Assembly: GCA_012521295.1 (NCBI GenBank)
Contig: JAAYMS010000064.1
Location: forward strand, 1 to 37,190
Direction: 5' to 3'
Origin: Bacillota bacterium
GTDB lineage: Bacteria > Bacillota > Limnochordia > Darwinibacteriales > Darwinibacteriaceae
DNA: 37,190 nucleotides
Part shown: positions 3,069 through 37,190 of the stretch, one piece after another
Layout of the letters: every line of letters begins with the position of its first letter
Position numbering within the stretch: the first letter of the stretch is position 1
Notes under the pieces: generated by a model
Database searches by the model: none
The model's input: only the letters and a program-made list of their open reading frames with translations
Told to the model about the DNA's origin: nothing
Made by a program: the position numbers and the translations under genes

Positions 3069-4498
3069 AAGAGTTGGCGCACAAGCTGCGTACGAGCCAA
3101 GTCTCCAGCGTCGAGCTCGTCCAGCATTATCTAGATCGGATTCGGGCGGTTGATTCTGATATTCGGGCTTTTCTATATGTGGACGAGGATGGAGCTATAG
3201 CCGAAGCAAAGGCATCTGATGAGCGCCGCCGCCGAGGAGAGCCCCTTTCGCCATGGGATGGAATTCCCATTGCGATTAAGGACAACATCTGTACTGTTGG
3301 GACACCTACAACTTGTGCATCCCGCATGCTGGAAAACTACTATTCACCGTTTGAAGCAGAGGTGATCACGCGCATCAAGCAGGCTGGGATGCCTATTCTG
3401 GGAAAGACGAATATGGATGAATTCGCCATGGGTTCTTCGACGGAGTTCTCTGCATTCTACATAACCCGAAATCCTCACGATCTTACCCGTGTCCCAGGTG
3501 GTTCGAGTGGTGGTTCAGCTGCGGCAGTGGCTGCAGGGGAAGCCCCTTGGGCCTTAGGTACCGATACTGGCGGCTCGATTCGCCAACCAGGGGCCTTTTG
3601 TGGAGTTGTCGGTTTGAAACCTACATATGGGCGTGTCTCACGGTGGGGCTTGGTGGCTCTAGCATCTTCACTCGACCAGATTGGCCCTATGGCCCGTACT
3701 GTTGCTGACGCAGAGATCCTCTTTTCGATTATTGCTGGGCACGACAACCGTGATTCTACATCTTGGCCTAATGCGGCTTATCGAGTAATGGACGCAGTGC
3801 CTGATAATCTGAAAGGGATCAGCGTTGGTGTCCCAGAGGAGTTTTTTGCGGAAGGCCTTGATCCCGAGGTTGCCTGCAGTGTAAGACAGGCAATTAAGAT
3901 GCTGGAGAACCTAGGTGCAGAGGTAAAGCCAATTTCTCTGCCTCATAATATCTACTCGATTGATACTTACCTCACACTCGTGACAGCAGAAGCAAGTTCA
4001 AATTTGGCTCGCTATGACGGGGTGCGGTACGGGCTCCGTGTTGAAGCGCCCGACTGTACTACCATGTTCAAGAAGACGCGCACTAAGGGCTTTGGCCCAG
4101 AGGTGAAGCGCCGGATCATGCTCGGTACTTATGTCTTGACCGCCAGTCATCACGAGGCCTTCTACGAGCAGGCGCGACGGGTCCGCACCTTGATAGCTCA
4201 AGACCTCGAACAAGCCTTTTCTAGCGTAGATGTAGTAGTGACACCGACCACGCCGACTACTGCATTTAGGATCGGTGAGAAGCAGGATCCACTTCAGATG
4301 TATTTGTCTGATTCGTACACAGCCATTGCGAATTTAGCCGGCAATCCTGCCCTCACTATGCCCTGCGGGATTGATCGGAAAGGGCTTCCAATTGGCCTGC
4401 AGCTGATTGCTGATCATTTCCGGGAAGACCTGATCTTTACTGTTGGGCGAGTATTGGAGCAGTCACTTAGGGAGGTGGAGGCCGGTGGGGAATTATGA
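3065..4498 (+). CDS. gatA: Asp/Glu-tRNA amidotransferase subunit A
   Basis: Amidase signature 'GGSSGGSAAAVAAGEAPWALGTDTGGSIRQPG', catalytic Lys in 'PIAIKDNI'; overlaps gatC by 4 nt. Confidence 0.98.
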
Positions 4499-5936
4499 GT
4501 TGACGATCGGGCTTGAAATTCATGTGGAACTGGCGACTAAGAGTAAGATGTTCTGTGGCTGTGCCACTACTTTTGGGGCGCCTCCCAATACTCAGTGCTG
4601 CCCAATTTGCCTTGGGTTGCCGGGCACTCTGCCTCTGCTGAATCGAACCGCAGTGGAGTATGGTATTCGGGCAGGGTTGGCACTTAACTGCCGGATTAAT
4701 CCAGTCAGCGAGTTTGCTCGCAAGAACTACTATTATCCTGATCTTCCCAAAGCCTACCAGATCACACAGCATGATAAACCGTTGGCTGAGAATGGGTTCC
4801 TCGAATACTTTCTTGATGGTCAGCTGACGAAAACAACCATAACCCGCCTTCATCTAGAGGAGGAAGTGGGTAAGTCAATCCACAGTGGTGACAGCATCAT
4901 CGGATCAGAGTATTCCTCGATTGACTATAACCGGGCAGGTATTCCCTTAATCGAGATTGTCACTGCACCTGAGATTGCCTCCCCGAAGCAGGCCCGCGTT
5001 TTCTTGGAGCAGCTGCGGCTTACCCTGCAGTACCTGGGAGTTTCGGATTGCAAGATGGAGAATGGTTCCCTGCGCTGTGACGCCAATGTTTCAGTCCGTG
5101 ATATAGAGGGGAACCCAGGCGAAAAGGTTGAAATTAAGAACCTTAACTCGTTCCGGGCTCTCGAGCGTGCTTTGGCATACGAAGGAGAGCGTCAGGCCGT
5201 TCTGTTGTCGCAGGGAAAACAGGTGCTCCGCGAAACCCGGACCTGGGATGAAAAAGCTCAAAAAACGGTGCGTATGCGCCTTAAGGCTGAAGCTCCAGAC
5301 TACCGGTACTTCCCAGAACCAGATCTGCCTCCCCTTGAGCTCGAGCAGGTGTGGATTCACGAAATAGCCTCCAGCCTTCCTGAGCTTCCGCTGGCGAGAG
5401 AAGAGCGCTTCCAGAAAGCGTATGGCTTGTCTGAGTATGACGCTGGAGTACTCGTCCGGGCGCCGCATCTGGCTGATGTCTTTGAAGAGACCGTTGCCCT
5501 TGGCCATTCCCCAAAACTAACAGCTAACTGGGTGCTGGGTGATTTTGCCCGACTAGCACGTCAAGGTGAAGTAGTTTCGGCGCAGCACTTTGGAGAGCTT
5601 CTCGAACTTGTCAGTTCGGGTCAGATCAATAATAACCAGGGCAAAGCTGTGCTAGAGGAGATGTTTGCCACTGGTGCATCTCCGAGGGAAATTGTGCAGA
5701 AAAAAGGGTTAACCATAATCCAAGACTTAGGTTTCCTAAAGACAGTGATTCAAGAAGCATTGAATGAACACAGCGAGCTGGTGGAAAGGTACAGATCGGG
5801 CGAAGATCGGCTTCTGGGATTTTTCGTCGGACAGGTGATGCGGAGGACCGGCGGCCGAGCAGAACCCGTTCTTGTAAACAAGTTGTTAGCAGAAGCCCTG
5901 CAGCCCGGAAGGAATTGGGAACCTCACAAGGAATAA
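4485..5936 (+). CDS. gatB: Asp/Glu-tRNA amidotransferase subunit B
   Basis: 'YELTIGLEIHVELATKSKMFCGC...CPICLGLPGTLP'; the track starts at TTG 4443, but GTG 4485 follows 'ggaggtgga' and gives the canonical N-terminus. Confidence 0.95.
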   Translation: MGNYELTIGLEIHVELATKSKMFCGCATTFGAPPNTQCCPICLGLPGTLPLLNRTAVEYGIRAGLALNCRINPVSEFARKNYYYPDLPKAYQITQHDKPLAENGFLEYFLDGQLTKTTITRLHLEEEVGKSIHSGDSIIGSEYSSIDYNRAGIPLIEIVTAPEIASPKQARVFLEQLRLTLQYLGVSDCKMENGSLRCDANVSVRDIEGNPGEKVEIKNLNSFRALERALAYEGERQAVLLSQGKQVLRETRTWDEKAQKTVRMRLKAEAPDYRYFPEPDLPPLELEQVWIHEIASSLPELPLAREERFQKAYGLSEYDAGVLVRAPHLADVFEETVALGHSPKLTANWVLGDFARLARQGEVVSAQHFGELLELVSSGQINNNQGKAVLEEMFATGASPREIVQKKGLTIIQDLGFLKTVIQEALNEHSELVERYRSGEDRLLGFFVGQVMRRTGGRAEPVLVNKLLAEALQPGRNWEPHKE

Positions 5937-6795: not shown

Positions 6796-7269
6796 ATGCT
6801 GCCGAAAAATGAACTGCGCGAGCGCATTTTCTCAATTCTCCGCGAGCATGACCATCGTCTGACACCACAGCGCGAAGCCGTGGTAGAGGTGTTGATCGAG
6901 AATTCAGATGCGCATTTGTCTGCGGAGAATATCTTCATGCAGACGAAGCACAACTACCCCGATATTGGTTTGGCGACGGTGTACCGCACGCTGGAGCTAT
7001 TGGAGAGCCTGGGTTTGGTGCACAAGTTCGAGTACGGTGACGGTCAAAGCCGCTATGAAGTAAACCAATCGGCAGACGATCACTATCATCATCATTTGAT
7101 CTGCGTGAAATGTGGCGGAATCGGCGAATTCAAAGACGACCTCTTGGACGAGATTGAACACGCAATAGCCAAAGAAACAGGTTTTCGGGTGACTGATCAC
7201 TGCCTGCGGTTTTTTGGTATCTGCAGCGAATGCCAAGCTGAGCCCGGGGAAAACAGCGACGACGATTGA
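6796..7269 (+). CDS. Fur/PerR family transcriptional regulator
   Basis: 'LTPQREAVVEVLIENSDAHLSAENIFMQ', 'IGLATVYRTLELLESLGLVHKFEYGDGQSRYE', 'DHYHHHLICVKCG', Cys pairs CVKC/CSEC. ATG 6796 preferred over GTG 6787. Confidence 0.92.
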   Translation: MLPKNELRERIFSILREHDHRLTPQREAVVEVLIENSDAHLSAENIFMQTKHNYPDIGLATVYRTLELLESLGLVHKFEYGDGQSRYEVNQSADDHYHHHLICVKCGGIGEFKDDLLDEIEHAIAKETGFRVTDHCLRFFGICSECQAEPGENSDDD

Positions 7270-7294
7270 CAAATCGGGTCGGACTGTATATCAT
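7266..7294 (+). promoter_or_regulatory. Sigma-A type promoter for T-box/valS: TTGACA-N17-TATCAT
   Basis: TTGACA 7266-7271, 17-nt spacer, TATCAT 7289-7294; placed just upstream of the T-box leader. Confidence 0.7.
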
Positions 7295-7299
7295 TAAAG

Positions 7300-7550
7300 A
7301 AAACACATGACGTAAAGGCTGTGAATGGGAGTAGTACCAGCGAGAGCGCCATCAGAGAGGGGAACCATATGGTGCGAGGTTTCCTTGGAAAGCAGGCTGG
7401 GAAGTCGCCCAGGAGCTGCTGAGGTGAATGAGTTTAGCCTCAGCCGGTGGTTCCGTTATCGCTATTGAGTGCCTGGCAGGCTTTTTCTGCTGGGAATTAA
7501 GGTGGTACCGCGAAATAAGCTTTTCGTCCTTAGGACGGAGGGCTTTTTTA
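7300..7550 (+). promoter_or_regulatory. T-box riboswitch leader of valS (tRNA-Val sensing)
   Basis: Stem I landmarks 'GGGAGTAGTA', 'CAGAGAG...GGTGCGAG'; candidate specifier in 'GAAGTCGCCC' (GTC = Val, 7404-7406); T-box core 'AATTAAGGTGGTACCGCG' at 7495-7512; followed by terminator and valS. Confidence 0.94.
7517..7549 (+). terminator. T-box regulated intrinsic terminator
   Basis: Stem AAGCTTTTCGTCC/GGACGGAGGGCTT (with GU pairs) around TTA loop, followed by T-tract. Confidence 0.88.
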
Positions 7551-7574
7551 TTTTGAAAATAGGAGGTTTTGAGC

Positions 7575-10205
7575 ATGGATAAGGTCTACAATCCTAGGGA
7601 AGTAGAAGACCGGATCTACGCTTTTTGGGAAGACAACGGCTACTTCCGTACTGAAGTAGAACCAGATAAAGAACCGTTCTGCATCGTGATCCCGCCGCCA
7701 AACGTCACTGGGCAGCTGCATATGGGCCATGCCCTTGATGAGACTTACCAAGATATCTTGGTGCGCTGGCGGCGCATGCAGGGATACAATGCGGTTTGGA
7801 TTCCTGGTACTGACCACGCCGGAATTGCTACTCAAGCTCGAGTCGAAGAACATATTCGGGCAACAGAAGGGAAAACCCGGCACGACTTGGGCCGCGAGGA
7901 GTTCTTGAAGCGTACTTGGGCTTGGAAGGAAGAATATGGCGGCCGCATCCTGAAGCAGCTGAGGAAACTCGGGGCTTCGGTTGACTGGAGCCGAGAGCGT
8001 TTTACGATGGATGAGGGCTGTTCGCGCGCAGTTCGGGAAGTCTTTGTACGATTATATGAAAAGGGCCTTATTTACCAAGGCAATTACAGTGTGAACTGGT
8101 GTCCGCAGTGCAGTACGACTCTTTCCGACATCGAGGTTGAACACGAAGAGCGCGAGGGCAGACTCTGGCACATCAGGTACCCTCTTGCCGATGGTTCGGG
8201 GTACATCCAAGTAGCTACCACCCGTCCAGAAACCATGCTGGGCGACACCGCTATCGCAGTCAATCCCGATGATGAACGCTATAAGGAGCTGGTGGGTAAG
8301 ACCGTCATTCTGCCGTTGATGAACCGGGAGATCCCCATCGTTGCCGACAGCTATGTTGATATGGAGTTCGGAACCGGAATGGTCAAAGTGACACCAGCCC
8401 ATGACCCCAATGACTTTGAGATTGGCCGGCGTCACAATCTGCCATCAATCGAGGTTATCGGGCGCGATGCACATATGACCGAAGCTGCTGGGCCATATCA
8501 AGGCTTGGAACGATACGAGTGCCGCAAGAAGGTTGTCGAAGACCTGAAGAAAGAGGGCTTCCTTGTCAAAGAAGAAGAGCATCATCACGCAGTCGGTGAG
8601 TGCTACCGCTGTGGAACTGTCGTTGAACCGCTCGTCTCCAAACAGTGGTTTGTGAAGATGGATAAGCTGGCAGAGCGGGCCCGCAAGGTAGTAGAAGAAG
8701 GACAGATCCGTTTTGTCCCTGAACGGTTTACAAAACAGTATCTGCACTGGATGGAGAATATTCGCGATTGGTGTATCTCCAGACAGCTGTGGTGGGGTCA
8801 CCGTATTCCAGTCTGGTACTGCCAGGACTGCGGTGCATCCTTTGCTTCACGCCAGGATCCGACAGAATGCGCTGAATGTGGTTCTACTCACATTGAACAG
8901 GATCCAGACGTTTTGGATACTTGGTTCTCGTCGGCTCTGTGGCCTTTCTCGACCCTGGGATGGCCTGACGAGACTCCTGATCTAGAGCATTTTTATCCGA
9001 CATCTGTATTAGTAACTGGGTTCGACATTATCTTCTTCTGGGTAGCCCGCATGATTGTGATGGGCCTGGAGTTTATGAATGATGTACCTTTCCGTGATGT
9101 ACTCATTCATGGGTTGGTGCGAGATGCTCAAGGGCGGAAGATGAGTAAGTCTTTGGGGAACGGAATTGACCCTCTGGAGGTCATTGCAGAGTATGGTGCA
9201 GACGCTCTCCGGTTCAACTTGGTGATCGGTGTAGCCCCTGGAAACGATATGCGGTTCATCCCTGAAAAGGTCGAAGCATACAGAAACTTCGCCAATAAGA
9301 TCTGGAACGCATCCAGGTTTGCGCTGATGAATCTGGAAGGGTTCACCCCCGCCGAATCCTTTGAAGGACTAGAGCTGACTCTGCCCGACAAATGGATCCT
9401 CAGCCGATTTGAGTATACCGCTTCAGAGTTGACAAGGCTCCTCGAACGCTATGATATTGGTGAGGGTGCTCGGGTGCTCTACGACTTCATCTGGAGCGAG
9501 CTTTGCGACTGGTATATCGAATTGGCAAAACCGCGGCTGTATGGCAGATATGGTGATGCTGCCCGGCTGGCTGCTCAGCAGACCTTGTGGTATGTCTTGA
9601 AGAATACACTGCAGCTTCTCCATCCATACATGCCATTTATCACAGAAGAAATTTGGCAGAACCTGCCGCATGAAGGCGAGACCATTGTTCGTGCCCCCTG
9701 GCCAACGCCAGGCGGTTTCAGATCTGAAAAGATCGAAGCGGCTATGTCCATCGTCATGGATGTTGTCACGGAGATCAGAACCGTCCGCAGTGAGAAGAAC
9801 GTGCCGCCTGGCCGGAAGATCACTGCTATCTGCCAGGCTGATCCCGCTGAACAGGCAATTCTCGAGGAAAACCGCGACAACATCATGACCCTTGCCGGCC
9901 TCGAGACATTAGAAATTACTGGCCTGGGCGAAAAACCAGCTAAGTCCATCGGAGCTATCGTACGTGGAATTGGTGTCTTCCTACCTCTTGCGGGGATGGT
10001 AGATTTGGAGGAGGAACGCAACAGGATCGCAAGGGACTTAGCACAGGCGGAGAAGGAGCTGCAGCGGGCACAAAGCAAGCTTGCCAATGAAGGATTTGTG
10101 AGCAAGGCTCCCGAAGAGGTCGTTGCTAAGGAGCGAGAGAAGGAAGCCAACCTGCGAGCAACAGTGGAGCGTTTGCAGAAACTCTTAGCAGAGATGCAGG
10201 AGTAA
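7575..10205 (+). CDS. valS: Valyl-tRNA synthetase
   Basis: HIGH motif '[15 protein letters not shown]', KMSKS '[14 protein letters not shown]', Val-type editing domain '[17 protein letters not shown]', C-terminal coiled coil. ATG 7575 after 'aggaggttttgagc'. Confidence 0.98.
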
Positions 10206-32286: not shown

Positions 32287-33038
32287 AAGAAGCATATACC
32301 CATTTAGCTCAGTTTTATGATCTGCTGATGGACGAAGATTATCAGGCATGGGCCTCTTATCTTCTAGACCTTGCAGAAGAAGCAGGGATTAGCCCGAAGC
32401 GGATCCTTGAACTCGGATGTGGTACCGGGAACCTCTCCTTGGCGTTAGCGGCTTGTGGCATGGAGGTTGTGGGCGTCGATATTTCTCCAGAAATGATCCG
32501 CGGTGCCCAGGAAAAGGCCGGCATCCAAGGATTAGCCCTCGATTTTCGGGTGCAGGATATGCGGGAACTGCACTTTCCTGATCAGCGGTGGGAGATCGCC
32601 ATTGCAGCGTGCGATGCGATGAACTATCTTACCACTGCTCATGACTTCTGCCTTGCGCTTCAGGCCGTTCACCGCCACTTAGAAGATGGCGGTGTGTTCT
32701 TCTTTGATCTCAACTCTGAAGCGAAGTTGAGAGAGTTGTATGGCAACAACTCATTTGCCGATCTACATGATGACTTCGCCTACTTCTGGGATAACAGCTT
32801 CGATGAGCAAGAAGAAACATGTATCATGGAGCTGACGTTTTTTGTGCAGGGAGGTTCTGGGGCATATCATCGTGTACAGGAGCGTCATGTTCAGAAACTG
32901 TGGCGGCCTGAGACGGTCGCAGAGTTCTTAGAACAAACGGGTTTCGAGTTGATTGGATGCTACGGGTTTATGACGATGGAACAGCCAAGTGACGATTGTG
33001 AGCGCTGGCAATTTGCCGCAAAGAAAGCACTTCGGTGA
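32283..33038 (+). CDS. Class I SAM-dependent methyltransferase
   Basis: SAM motif 'ILELGCGTGNLSLALAACGMEVVGVDIS'; overlaps rsfS by 4 nt. Confidence 0.92.
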   Translation: MKEAYTHLAQFYDLLMDEDYQAWASYLLDLAEEAGISPKRILELGCGTGNLSLALAACGMEVVGVDISPEMIRGAQEKAGIQGLALDFRVQDMRELHFPDQRWEIAIAACDAMNYLTTAHDFCLALQAVHRHLEDGGVFFFDLNSEAKLRELYGNNSFADLHDDFAYFWDNSFDEQEETCIMELTFFVQGGSGAYHRVQERHVQKLWRPETVAEFLEQTGFELIGCYGFMTMEQPSDDCERWQFAAKKALR

Positions 33039-33056
33039 GCCGAAGTGCTTCTTTTT
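33025..33056 (+). terminator. Intrinsic terminator overlapping the methyltransferase 3' end
   Basis: AAGCACTTCGG/CCGAAGTGCTT perfect stem with TGAG loop containing the stop codon, then CTTTTT. Confidence 0.9.
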
Positions 33057-33058
33057 GA

Positions 33059-33301
33059 TCACATCTGAGTTTTGAAGGCCCCTTGTTGACGGAGGAGTTC
33101 TTGTTCGGCCAAGGCAATCATTCTTCTGACCATATGTCCGCCAACTGCACCGCACTCTCTTGAGGAGATGTTTCCCCAGTAGCCAGTTTTATACTCGGGA
33201 TTGATTCCCAATTCAGCAGCTACTTCGTATTTGAACTGATTCAGTGCTTGATATGCTTGAGGGACCAGTTTTTGCTTGCTGGTGTTTGAGCCTAGTGCCA
33301 T
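33059..33301 (-). CDS. Alpha/beta-type small acid-soluble spore protein
   Basis: 'LVPQAYQALNQFKYEVAAELGI...WGNISSRECGAVGGHMVRRMIALAEQEL'; - strand RBS 'gggaggg' 6 nt before the second ATG (33301). Confidence 0.94.
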   Translation of the reverse strand: MALGSNTSKQKLVPQAYQALNQFKYEVAAELGINPEYKTGYWGNISSRECGAVGGHMVRRMIALAEQELLRQQGAFKTQM

Positions 33302-33497
33302 GTTCATCCCTCCCGAAGAAGTTGTTTGTGTGCTTTAGTGTCTCCTTTCAAACATGTTTTACGCAGGTAACTGTCACCAGGTCTCGATTTATTTAAAAAA
33401 ATGAGTGCAGGAATTATCTTAAGGTCGTTGAATAGGATCAAGTGGTGTTCGTGATAATTTTCTCGATCGCATACACTTAGCGAAAGGGTGAGTCTTT

Positions 33498-34823
33498 TTG
33501 ATAGCTAAGACATTTCCGCGGGGTGGTTCTGAGATTCCACACCGGAAAGAGGCTACTGAGCATAAACCTATTGTGACTTTGGCTCCACCGCAGTTTGTGG
33601 TTATCCCATTGCGGCAGCATATTGGGGCACCCTGCAAGCCTTTAGTAGCAGTAGGTGATTATGTCAAAATGGGACAGAAGATTGGTGACACTGATCAGTT
33701 TGTCAGTGCACCTGTCCATGCTAGTGTCTCTGGTACAGTAACAGCTATTGAGGAGCGGGTCCTCCTGAATGGCAGCAAGTGTTTGGCTGTTGTGATTGAA
33801 AATGACGGCAAGGATGAAAGACACGTCTATCCAACTAAGCCAGTTGATAAGATGTCTGCAGAGTCTATCCGGCAGGCTGTTCGTGAGGCTGGTATCGTTG
33901 GTATGGGCGGGGCTGGGTTCCCCACACATATTAAGCTCAATCCCCCTAAGCCTGTTGATACAGTGATCATCAACGGCGCAGAGTGTGAGCCGTACCTCAC
34001 CTGCGATCACCGCCTTATGGTGGAGCAGGCAGAAGCTTTGGTTGAAGGAACAAAGGCAATCATGAAGGCCGTTGGGGCTGAACGTGGCATTTTGGGTATT
34101 GAAGCGAACAAGCCCGACGCTATTGAAGCAGTGCGGGACATGATTGGCGACGCTCCTTCTTTGTCTGTAACCGTTCTGCAGGTACGTTATCCACAGGGAG
34201 CAGAGAAGCAGCTGATAAAGGCAGCTGTCAATCGTGAAGTCCCATCTGGTAAACTGCCGGCCGAAGTAGGCTGTGTGGTCAGCAATGTGCATACAGCAAT
34301 CAGCATTTATGAGGCCCTGACTAAAGGAATTGCCTCGTATGAACGCGTTGTGACAGTCAGCGGTGGTGCTGTAGTAGACCCGCGTAACGTTCGTGTGCGG
34401 ATTGGTACACCTCTGCAGGCTCTGCTGGACTTCTGTGGCGGGACCTTGGGCGAGCCTGCAGTAATTGTAGGCGGCGGCCCTATGACAGGCCCACCAGTAG
34501 CATCTTTAGAAGCACCAGTAGTCAAGAATCTGTCTGGGATTCTCGCCTTAACCGCTGAGGAAGTAGGCTTTGATGAAAACCGTCCATGTATTCGCTGCGC
34601 ACGATGCGTGAATGTATGTCCTATGGGCCTTACTCCAAATATGCTTGGAGCCTTGTCGCACCACGGCAGGTTTTCGCAGGCGGCATCCATAGGCTTGATG
34701 GATTGCATTGAATGTGGACTGTGTTCTTTTGCATGTCCATCGAAACGCGCTTTGGTGACGTGGATTAAGGAAGGCAAAGCTGGATGGCAGGCGGAAAGGG
34801 CGGCCGCACAGGCGGCGAAGTAG
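33498..34823 (+). CDS. rnfC: Rnf electron transport complex subunit C
   Basis: 'FVVIPLRQHIGAPCKPLVAVGDYVKMGQKIG', 'GMGGAGFPTHIKLN', 'NGAECEPYLTCDHRLM', two [4Fe-4S] motifs 'CIRCARCVNVCP' and 'CIECGLCSFACP'. Confidence 0.97.
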   Translation: MIAKTFPRGGSEIPHRKEATEHKPIVTLAPPQFVVIPLRQHIGAPCKPLVAVGDYVKMGQKIGDTDQFVSAPVHASVSGTVTAIEERVLLNGSKCLAVVIENDGKDERHVYPTKPVDKMSAESIRQAVREAGIVGMGGAGFPTHIKLNPPKPVDTVIINGAECEPYLTCDHRLMVEQAEALVEGTKAIMKAVGAERGILGIEANKPDAIEAVRDMIGDAPSLSVTVLQVRYPQGAEKQLIKAAVNREVPSGKLPAEVGCVVSNVHTAISIYEALTKGIASYERVVTVSGGAVVDPRNVRVRIGTPLQALLDFCGGTLGEPAVIVGGGPMTGPPVASLEAPVVKNLSGILALTAEEVGFDENRPCIRCARCVNVCPMGLTPNMLGALSHHGRFSQAASIGLMDCIECGLCSFACPSKRALVTWIKEGKAGWQAERAAAQAAK

Positions 34824-34847
34824 AAAGCGGTTGAGGGAGTGGAGAGC

Positions 34848-37190
34848 ATGGAAAGACGAACGGGTCCTTATTTACGTAGTCCGGTAACTATAGAGAGTAC
34901 GATGCGCGATGTGTTGATTTCACTGCTACCTGCGCTCGCAGCTGGAGTTGTCTTCTTTGGCCTTCGGGCTTTGTGGCTAGTGATCCTCAGCACTGCAGCA
35001 GCGATGGTTACAGAAATGCTGCTCTTGAGGCGGCCCTTTACACGAGAGGGTTTGTTTGGAGACGGAAGTGCTGCCGTTACAGGTGTGTTGGTGGGATTAA
35101 TTCTGCCGTCAACAGCGTCCTGGTGGGTTCCAGTAGTGGGCAGCATCATAGCCATTGCTGTTGTTAAGCTGCCTTTTGGTGGATTGGGTTATAACATCTT
35201 TAACCCCGCTTTGGGAGCAAGGGCAATTCTTCTGTTAGCCTTTACGTCTCAAATGGTGCGCTTTGCGCTGCCTTTTGATACGGTTACTGGTGCCACACCC
35301 CTACTTACCATGACTAGTTTCGATTGGTCACTCATATGGGGTAATGTGGGCGGCAGTATTGGCGAAACCTCTGTTATTGCCATCCTTTTGGGAGCAGCCT
35401 ACCTGTTCTATAAAGGGCATATTGATTGGCGGATTCCGGTAGGTTACGTTGGCGCAGCCTTTGTCATGGCTCTTTTGTGGGGATTGAACCCCTGGATTAC
35501 AGTTTTTGCAGGCGGCCTTTTGTTTGGTGCGGTCTTCATGGCCACCGACATGGTTACCTCGCCGGTTACTCCCATGGGGCAGCTTTTGTTCGGAATTGGC
35601 TGTGGTGTGCTCACGGTTTTCATCCGTAAGTTCACATCGCTACCTGAAGGCGTTACCTTTGCAATTCTAGGCATGAACGCGTTAGTGCCTATTTTAGACA
35701 AACTTACTATGCCTCAGCGCTTTGGTGTTGGTATCCCTCGTGAACAGCGGTTCCAGGGTACCGCAGTGGGTGTAGTTGTGACTGCTGCTGTTGTTCTGCT
35801 AGCAGTAATCATCGCCACCCCAGGTCAAGAAATACAGCCTGTGTTCAGCGGCCCTCATTATCTGCCCATTGTTGAGATGTTAGGTACAAGCGATTATTCG
35901 GTTGAGGAGATCAATGGTACCCGCTACTATACCGTGCGAGATGGCGAAGGAACCCTCAAGGCTGCGGTATTTGCAGCTGAGCAGCGGGGCTTCCATGGGC
36001 CGATCCAATTCTTAGTTGCCCTTGACGATCAGTTTGCTATCACTGATCTGCGGGTCTTGGAACATAAGGAAGACCCCGGTTTGGGTGCCTTGGTTGCCAA
36101 GCCTGATTTCTTATCCCAATTTGTCGGGCTTAATGTAGACAGTGCTTTCAGTTTGGGCACAGACGTTGATGGGATTTCTGGCGCAACTATTTCTTCGAGA
36201 GCAATGGCCACAGGTGTGCGCCGCGCTCTAGAAGGATTTATGGATGCCTTCTTCCCGACGACAGAAGCAGCAGCTGGATGGTCCGACGGGGTTTATACCG
36301 GAGTTGCTGACTCCTTCGGTGGTCCGCTTACTGTAGAAGTAGTCGTTACGAACGGTCAAATTGCAGATGTCCGAGTCCTTTCTAGTTCTGATACACCTGG
36401 TATTTCTGACGGTGCAATTGCCAATGTTCCTGGCCGGATAGTGGCTGCTAATAGTCCAAAGGTTGATGCATATTCTGGCGCCACTGTAACTAGTGAAGCG
36501 ATTATGAGCGCTGTCGAAAAAGCATTGTCGCAGGCAGCGGCTGATGTGATGGCAGGTTGGCCTGATGGCACCTATACAGGCAGTGCAGCTGGTTTCAGCG
36601 GTCAGGTTGAGGTAGAAGTAACCGTAAGCGGCGGCCAAATCATTGATGTAAGAGTTGTCTCTCATTCTGATACGCCTGGCATCTCTGACTCGGCAATCAA
36701 CGCCATCCCAGGGCGCATTGTAGAGGCAAACAGCCCCGACGTTGATGTTGTCAGCGGTGCAACTTATACAAGTGAAGGTATTATCGCAGCCGTGCGTAAT
36801 GCGCTTGATTCACAAGCTTCAGCTGGGGAGGCTCCAGCAGAGCAACCAAGCTCAGCTGTAGGATTTGACATCAAAGTTTCTGATGGTACCTACCGTGCTG
36901 TGGGTAAGGGCTTTGGCGGTGACTTGGTTGTTGATGTAACAGTGGCAGGTGGCAAGATCAATGCTATCTCGGTTGTTGAGCATGCAGACACACCATTCTT
37001 AGCCGATCCAGCGATCGAGGCTCTTGTACCGGCAATCCTTGATGCTCAGGGTGTTGTGGACGTATACAGCGGTGCTACCATGACCAGTAAAGGCCTGTTT
37101 GAAGCTGTAGAGAAGGCTGTCAGCGGCGCAGGTGAAGCTGAAGTTGCTGCGAAGGTCGAGCCTTTCGATATTAAGGTCTCTGACGGTACC
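34848..37190 (+). CDS. RnfD-RnfG fusion with additional tandem FMN-binding domains (3' truncated by window edge; 781 codons without a stop)
   Basis: Translated by hand from ATG 34848 to 37190. RnfD part 'MERRTGPYLRSPVTIESTMRDVLISLLPALAAGVVFFGLRAL...FDTVTGATPLLTM...ILGMNALVPILDKLTMPQRFG'; RnfG part 'FQGTAVGVVVTAAVVLLAVIIA...EHKEDPGLGALVAKPDFLSQFVGL...DVDGISGATISSRAMATGVRRAL'; then repeats such as 'DGVYTGVADSFGGPLTVEVVVTNGQIADVRVLSSSDTPGISDGAIANVPGRIVAANSPKVDAYSGATVTSEAIMSAVEKAL'. Absent from the ORF track, apparently because no stop occurs in the window. Confidence 0.93.
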   Translation, partial: MERRTGPYLRSPVTIESTMRDVLISLLPALAAGVVFFGLRALWLVILSTAAAMVTEMLLLRRPFTREGLFGDGSAAVTGVLVGLILPSTASWWVPVVGSIIAIAVVKLPFGGLGYNIFNPALGARAILLLAFTSQMVRFALPFDTVTGATPLLTMTSFDWSLIWGNVGGSIGETSVIAILLGAAYLFYKGHIDWRIPVGYVGAAFVMALLWGLNPWITVFAGGLLFGAVFMATDMVTSPVTPMGQLLFGIGCGVLTVFIRKFTSLPEGVTFAILGMNALVPILDKLTMPQRFGVGIPREQRFQGTAVGVVVTAAVVLLAVIIATPGQEIQPVFSGPHYLPIVEMLGTSDYSVEEINGTRYYTVRDGEGTLKAAVFAAEQRGFHGPIQFLVALDDQFAITDLRVLEHKEDPGLGALVAKPDFLSQFVGLNVDSAFSLGTDVDGISGATISSRAMATGVRRALEGFMDAFFPTTEAAAGWSDGVYTGVADSFGGPLTVEVVVTNGQIADVRVLSSSDTPGISDGAIANVPGRIVAANSPKVDAYSGATVTSEAIMSAVEKALSQAAADVMAGWPDGTYTGSAAGFSGQVEVEVTVSGGQIIDVRVVSHSDTPGISDSAINAIPGRIVEANSPDVDVVSGATYTSEGIIAAVRNALDSQASAGEAPAEQPSSAVGFDIKVSDGTYRAVGKGFGGDLVVDVTVAGGKINAISVVEHADTPFLADPAIEALVPAILDAQGVVDVYSGATMTSKGLFEAVEKAVSGAGEAEVAAKVEPFDIKVSDGT
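36277..37190 (+). repeat. Tandem FMN-binding domain repeats (3 complete, 4th starting at window edge)
   Basis: Protein-level repeats with [YV]SGATxTS at 36474, 36753 and 37068 and 'FDIKVSDGT' recurring exactly 300 nt apart (36864 and 37164). Confidence 0.88.

Follow-up and report, generated by a model that had tools for sequence, protein, structure and literature searches.

In the Rnf complex of A. woodii, electrons pass from ferredoxin to RnfB, the [2Fe-2S] cluster of RnfA and RnfE, the FMN of RnfG, the FMN and riboflavin of RnfD, RnfC and finally NAD+, with Na+ movement linked to the step that reduces the [2Fe-2S] cluster (PMC11889175). In the solved Rnf structures, four cysteines are the ligands of an iron or [2Fe-2S] centre lying between the RnfA and RnfE subunits; they are residues 25 and 113 of RnfA and 25 and 108 of RnfE in A. 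woodii, and residues 26 and 109 of RnfE in C. tetanomorphum (PMC9588780, PMC11889175). Multi-flavinylated proteins with up to 13 sites, as well as multi-flavinylated RnfG encoded in RNF clusters, have been published (PMC8238504, PMC11334425). The survey that described them counted a system as RNF if it had RnfB, and envisaged a second branch on a full Rnf (PMC8238504). In NQR/RNF-like systems, the NqrB/RnfD membrane domain (PF03116) is fused to an NqrF-type PF00175 domain, and the system consists of two subunits (PMC8238504, PMC11334425).

Here we describe a variant operon, rnfC-rnfDG*-rnfE-rnfA, that lacks rnfB and in which RnfD is fused to RnfG and additional FMN_bind domains. The window, that is, the whole stretch of DNA analysed (37,190 nt), is the entire contig C57 of the draft genome of an uncultured bacterium, G000 (2.3 Mb, 95% complete). 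Like canonical Rnf (A. woodii, 9eri; C. tetanomorphum, 7zc6), the module has homologues of RnfC, RnfD, RnfG, RnfE and RnfA in the same order, and the RnfC motifs, the flavin residues of RnfD and the FMN motif of RnfG are kept. It departs from canonical Rnf in that rnfB is missing from the operon, all four [2Fe-2S] ligand cysteines are absent, and RnfD is joined to RnfG and extra FMN_bind domains. The module resembles multi-flavinylated RnfG (Meheust et al. 2021, PMC8238504) in combining an RnfG-type domain with further FMN_bind domains in an Rnf-type operon, and a path to outside acceptors is an idea common to both; it differs in the absence of RnfB and of the [2Fe-2S] ligands and in having RnfD fused in. 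With the NQR/RNF-like one-way systems (PMC8238504, PMC11334425) it shares a single transmembrane leg and NAD(P)H as the proposed donor to an extracytosolic FMN domain. Unlike those systems, its cytosolic subunit is RnfC, RnfE and RnfA are kept, and the fusion partner is RnfG/FMN_bind; a Pfam search found no PF00175 domain in the fusion protein. The repeats are homologous to the tandem FMN_bind domains of SaFMN3 and CbFMN4, for which covalent FMN has been shown (PMC10339131; 8p2a, 8p2b), but those are free-standing soluble proteins, whereas the repeats of the module are fused to a membrane electron-transfer subunit.

Taken alone, the motif array is a further case of the published multi-flavinylated proteins (PMC8238504). 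The combination of an RnfD-RnfG fusion, no rnfB, no cluster ligands and a retained RnfC lies outside both the RNF and the NQR/RNF-like definitions of that survey. We found no description of the RnfD-RnfG fusion of the module or of cluster-less RnfA/E in the open-access literature, subscription papers being mostly outside the search.

Operon, fusion gene and flavinylation motifs

The best PDB match of the RnfC encoded in the window is A. woodii RnfC (9eri_C, E 3e-126). Both CxxCxxCxxxCP motifs and GIVGMGGAGFPT are present, and the eight cluster cysteines and the FMN/NADH motifs are intact. Similarly, both [4Fe-4S] motifs occur in all module loci with a readable RnfC, and the nucleotide-site motifs in nearly all of them. 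The riboflavin and FMN residues of RnfD are also kept: N122, D237 and T153 of the fusion correspond to A. woodii N123, D249 and T156, whose equivalents are invariant in a 19-sequence alignment. Downstream of the fusion gene lie rnfE and rnfA, both PF02508, and the four genes are contiguous in 17-kb stretches of two relatives, G001 and G007, in neither of which rnfB was found within roughly 5 kb on either side of the module. Scanning for promoters and terminators returned chance-level numbers only; the single terminator-like site is a strong stem-loop upstream of rnfC (33025-33050).

Table 1 Features of the rnfC-rnfDG* region (window coordinates unless a contig is named)
Feature	Position	Strand	Remarks
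rnfC, NADH/FMN-binding subunit with two [4Fe-4S] clusters	33498..34823	+	TIGR01945, E 2e-156
rnfDG* fusion (RnfD + RnfG-type TM + FMN_bind + tandem FMN_bind)	34839..37190	+	5' part; truncated by contig end
TGAT, RnfD-type	35286-35297	+	predicted covalent FMN on T153 of fusion
Single TM helix, aa 308-326	35760..35816	+	hydropathy peak 2.8; helix 301-326 in AlphaFold2 model
FMN_bind 1, RnfG-type	35988..36233	+	SGAT 36177-36188; Pfam
FMN_bind 2	36315..36530	+	SGAT 36474-36485
FMN_bind 3	36591..36809	+	SGAT 36753-36764; best match to solved CbFMN4 domain 1 (8p2b)
FMN_bind 4	36909..37121	+	SGAT 37068-37079; 86% protein and 83% DNA identity to last repeat on contig C41
3' continuation of rnfDG*	G000:C41:3-350		C-terminal FMN_bind repeat and stop codon

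The visible part of rnfDG* encodes 784 residues, with no stop before the end of the contig. Pfam places an NQR2_RnfD_RnfE domain at residues 8-296 (E 1e-98), and TIGR01947 (rnfG) matches the fusion protein as a whole (E 9e-46). The transmembrane helix that follows the RnfD part is the predicted equivalent of the RnfG membrane anchor and would place the FMN_bind domains outside. The five [ST]GAT motifs that the earlier note had assigned to one protein are all present, in a common frame (Table 1). Its wording, "at least five", holds as a minimum, and the true count is higher, the reading frame being open at the contig end. Four FMN_bind domains score above the Pfam cut-off, each with an SGAT (the Dxx[ST]GA[ST] attachment-site motif is present). 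The last four motifs are 297, 279 and 315 nt apart because domain and linker repeat at that length, which bears out the reading of these spacings as about one small domain each. When the 784 residues were shuffled 5000 times with composition unchanged, the mean number of motifs was 0.10 and the maximum 2, versus the five observed.

The 3' end of the gene lies on another contig of the same genome. Contig C41 opens with the C-terminal 115 residues of such a protein, comprising one FMN_bind domain with YSGATMTS and a stop codon; rnfE and rnfA come next, and after them genes reading as comEA and comEC. The contiguous loci of G001 and G007 show the same gene order, and this synteny, together with the reading frame, links C57 to C41 in our reconstruction of the operon. 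The window ends and C41 begins in repeats of one kind, but the two sequences do not match, and therefore at least one further repeat copy is missing between them. This implies at least six FMN_bind domains and at least seven predicted covalent FMN sites, the RnfD site included, in the fusion of this genome; these are lower bounds, since the assembly breaks within near-identical repeats. Contigs of relatives also often end inside the fusion gene, and the G001 assembly fills the repeat region with Ns, whose number is no measure of its length. Complete fusion genes of relatives carry about two to six FMN_bind motifs (two or three in some, five or six in others); every one of them keeps at least one extra motif-bearing domain, and most keep two or more. 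The repeat number varies widely, so no fixed wire length is conserved.

Homology gives good support to covalent attachment of FMN at the motifs by ApbE, as previously proposed. CbFMN4 domain 1 (PDB 8p2b), which the repeats match at E 4e-13, carries covalent FMN in crystals (PMC10339131). In the alignment with A. woodii RnfD (9eri_D, DTVTTATPL), T153 of the fusion corresponds to T156, the residue that bears covalent FMN (PMC11889175), and this threonine is conserved in 30/30 fusion RnfD sequences. A genome without ApbE, which the earlier note had named as a refutation, is not what we found: there is exactly one ApbE (E 6e-95), encoded on contig C49 adjoining rnfB. Every motif threonine of the fusion is predicted by homology to carry FMN. 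We also considered whether relatives without TGAT have lost RnfD flavinylation, and rejected this: A. woodii has TTAT, with FMN on the last threonine.

A "flavin wire" built from these domains is plausible, but a rigid wire of fixed distances finds no support in the structural model. AlphaFold2 (19 sequences; mean pLDDT 69.6, pTM 0.39) returned four well-formed FMN_bind domains with good local confidence, in blocks mostly near 80, joined by low-confidence linkers; overall placement is poor, and the relative positions of the domains are unreliable. The model suggests tethered beads on a string.

Cluster ligands, canonical Rnf and origin

Both ligand cysteines are replaced in module RnfA in 21/21 sequences of the family. 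In module RnfE both are replaced in 20/21, the remaining sequence beginning too late for the first site and being readable, and replaced, at the second only. Canonical copies sampled from the same family (9 RnfE, 9 RnfA) keep all ligand cysteines. Order-level relatives of the module with a readable RnfE or RnfA likewise lack them. Outside the order, RnfA has both cysteines in 55/55 loci and RnfE in 49/57, the other eight lacking one. Since the module genes share their ancestry, the replacement counts as one ancestral loss and not as 21 independent ones. Separately, alanine replaces the second RnfE cluster cysteine (e.g., VVVFAIILARAE) in L032, L055, L057, L080, L089, L093, L094 and L095, loci from Clostridium, Sporomusa, Dichloromethanomonas, Syntrophomonas and others, where the first RnfE cysteine and both RnfA cysteines remain.

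In pairs with estimable dS, dN/dS is well below 1 for module RnfE and RnfA (G015-G016: RnfE 0.07/0.67, RnfA 0.08/0.59), several of the dS values being near saturation. Judged by these ratios, the cluster-less genes are not decaying and are under purifying selection.

In almost all genomes of the family a single rnfB scores above cut-off, and it sits beside a second, canonical rnf set. The canonical operon of G001 is contiguous (rnfC-D-G-E-A-B-apbE). In G000, contig C115 carries rnfC-D-G-E-A and then ends, and C49 carries rnfB at its end, then apbE; the two are apparently parts of one canonical operon, which fits the order in G001, and this rnfB encodes a full-type RnfB. The idea that G000 lacks rnfB was rejected on finding the gene on C49, in the apparent continuation of the C115 operon. 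In G004 the assembly holds the module only, with neither rnfB nor apbE. We did not accept this genome as proof that the module functions without rnfB: with apbE absent too, the assembly may just have missed the canonical locus.

In the RnfD tree, the fusion RnfD sequences form a single clade (support 100/100) from 30 genomes in five families of one order. This clade adjoins canonical RnfD of Syntrophomonadaceae-like Bacillota; the canonical RnfD that these genomes also encode falls at a clear distance from it. Near full-length matches occur in 20/23 genomes of the family, and the three below this threshold contain fragments resembling fusion RnfD. Four other families of that order also have the fusion; no near full-length match was found in any other family of the class. 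Its named relatives are Bacillota/Limnochordia MAGs.

Three side observations bear on these lineages. A Poribacteria genome encodes an RnfD-RnfG fusion of 530 residues with one motif (L026, 5619-7208) that falls outside the fusion clade; its RnfE and RnfA are ordinary and cysteine-bearing, so fusion and cluster loss are separable. The sister-clade locus L024 has a complete canonical rnfCDGEAB with a two-motif RnfG (6927-7730) and, upstream, a separate small FMN_bind-like protein (4078-4518), a state that is a possible intermediate. Finally, putative genes for a small acid-soluble spore protein near the module (window 33059-33307, - strand) and for a germination protease and a SpoIIP-like protein on L101 (5745-6854 and 7531-8637) suggest a spore former.

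Proposed electron path and its alternatives

The earlier reading was sound on the motif array and on flavinylation by homology; it overlooked the operon without rnfB and the ligand loss in RnfE and RnfA, which together change what the complex can do. Judged from gene content and ligand sites, the operon no longer has the ferredoxin-side leg (RnfB and the [2Fe-2S] ligand cysteines are absent), and the NADH-side leg, comprising RnfC and the cofactor residues of RnfD, is intact. With a probability of roughly 0.6, we take the module to be a derived, "one-legged" Rnf (RnfC, RnfD::RnfG::FMN_bind(n), RnfE, RnfA) that passes NADH electrons outward, probably without pumping of the known type.

Without RnfB and the cluster, electrons would have to be carried by the RnfG-RnfD-RnfC part alone, and this part together with the extra outer flavin domains points to NADH-driven export. 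Electrons would pass from NADH to RnfC (FMN, [4Fe-4S]), the riboflavin and then the FMN of RnfD, and the FMN of RnfG, and from there, by way of the FMN domains on their flexible tethers, to an acceptor outside the cytosol. The redox-driven Na+ stroke described for Rnf depends on the [2Fe-2S] cluster, and the complex would therefore probably not pump in the known way. Purifying selection would be keeping RnfA and RnfE for a role that does not involve the [2Fe-2S] cofactor. In the same genome, the canonical Rnf would be the ferredoxin:NAD+ pump, and the ApbE linked to it would supply both complexes with covalent flavin. We infer the loading of each site, the electron direction, the coupling and the acceptor.

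Candidate acceptors encoded elsewhere in the genome are putatively secreted double-FMN_bind proteins and FAD_binding_2 flavoproteins. Contigs C31 and C94 each carry an FAD_binding_2 flavoprotein near a protein with two FMN_bind domains (L103, 2487-4701; L104, 2387-4779), and all of these have signal-like N-termini as judged by eye. The flavoproteins are candidates for the terminal reductase and the double-FMN_bind proteins for the next carrier; no linkage of these genes to the module operon was found. A further observation concerns contig C170 (L107, 1787-6589, - strand), where an nqrBCDEF-like operon, its NqrF having the typical domains (Fer2, FAD_binding_6, NAD_binding_1), is followed by a 155-residue protein without a Pfam match and then by rubrerythrin. 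No nqrA scored above cut-off anywhere in the G000 genome, the matches being the two RnfC only. This operon may connect Nqr-type electron transfer to defence against peroxide or oxygen.

The one-legged complex might instead run inward, from outside donors through the flavin chain and RnfD/RnfC to NAD+, which we consider unlikely. The potential of the NADH/NAD+ couple is -320 mV. Covalent FMN in the multi-FMN protein SaFMN3 lies near -184 mV (PMC10339131), above that value, so export would be downhill; this, and the presence of candidate extracytosolic reductases in the genome, must be set against the chemical reversibility of the carriers and the ability of Rnf to run both ways (PMC11889175). 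We are equally doubtful that the flavin domains are a redox buffer or an NADH-fed oxygen scavenger with no specific acceptor. Reduced SaFMN3 readily reacts with O2 (PMC10339131) and a variable repeat number suits a buffer, but fusion to RnfD puts the chain on the electron exit, and double-FMN and FAD_binding_2 proteins with signal-like N-termini are available as partners.

An ordinary ferredoxin:NAD+ Rnf, with the flavin domains as a side branch, is a poor prospect as well. Such a branch to outside acceptors has been proposed for multi-flavinylated RnfG (PMC8238504); here, RnfB would come from the canonical operon and the cluster would be held by other residues. The full-type RnfB of the genome, the RnfA/E homologues of the module, and the complete rnfCDGEAB with its two-motif RnfG in L024 are compatible with this explanation. 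However, module RnfA/E lack all four cluster cysteines, the RnfB gene adjoins the canonical copies, and direct transfer from RnfB to RnfC, over more than 30 Å, is judged unlikely in solved Rnf (PMC11889175). In principle the canonical RnfB might serve the module in trans, although it has no known route to RnfG once the cluster is gone. It is highly improbable that the tail is a by-product of repeat recombination, with the RnfD and RnfG sites alone mattering and the extra domains neutral, for although the last repeats are near-identical and variable in copy number, extra motif-bearing domains persist in all complete genes of relatives.

Meaning for Rnf-type pumps

Returning to outward transfer from NADH, we see about even odds that a respiratory ion pump of the Rnf type has become a one-way NADH-to-outside conduit across this order, having lost the ferredoxin subunit and the cluster, with RnfA and RnfE as cofactor-free scaffolds and a flavin chain of variable length, and that it has long been kept beside a normal Rnf. 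If true, this would be a natural experiment on the Rnf/Nqr pump, in which the proposed coupling element, the [2Fe-2S] cluster of RnfA/E, has been removed and the rest kept. Set side by side with the canonical Rnf from one and the same cell, the module would then offer a direct test of whether it is the cluster that links redox chemistry to Na+ movement. For multi-flavinylated proteins, with their uncertain electron source and role, there would be a defined entry point, since they would form a covalent part of the membrane complex that feeds them.
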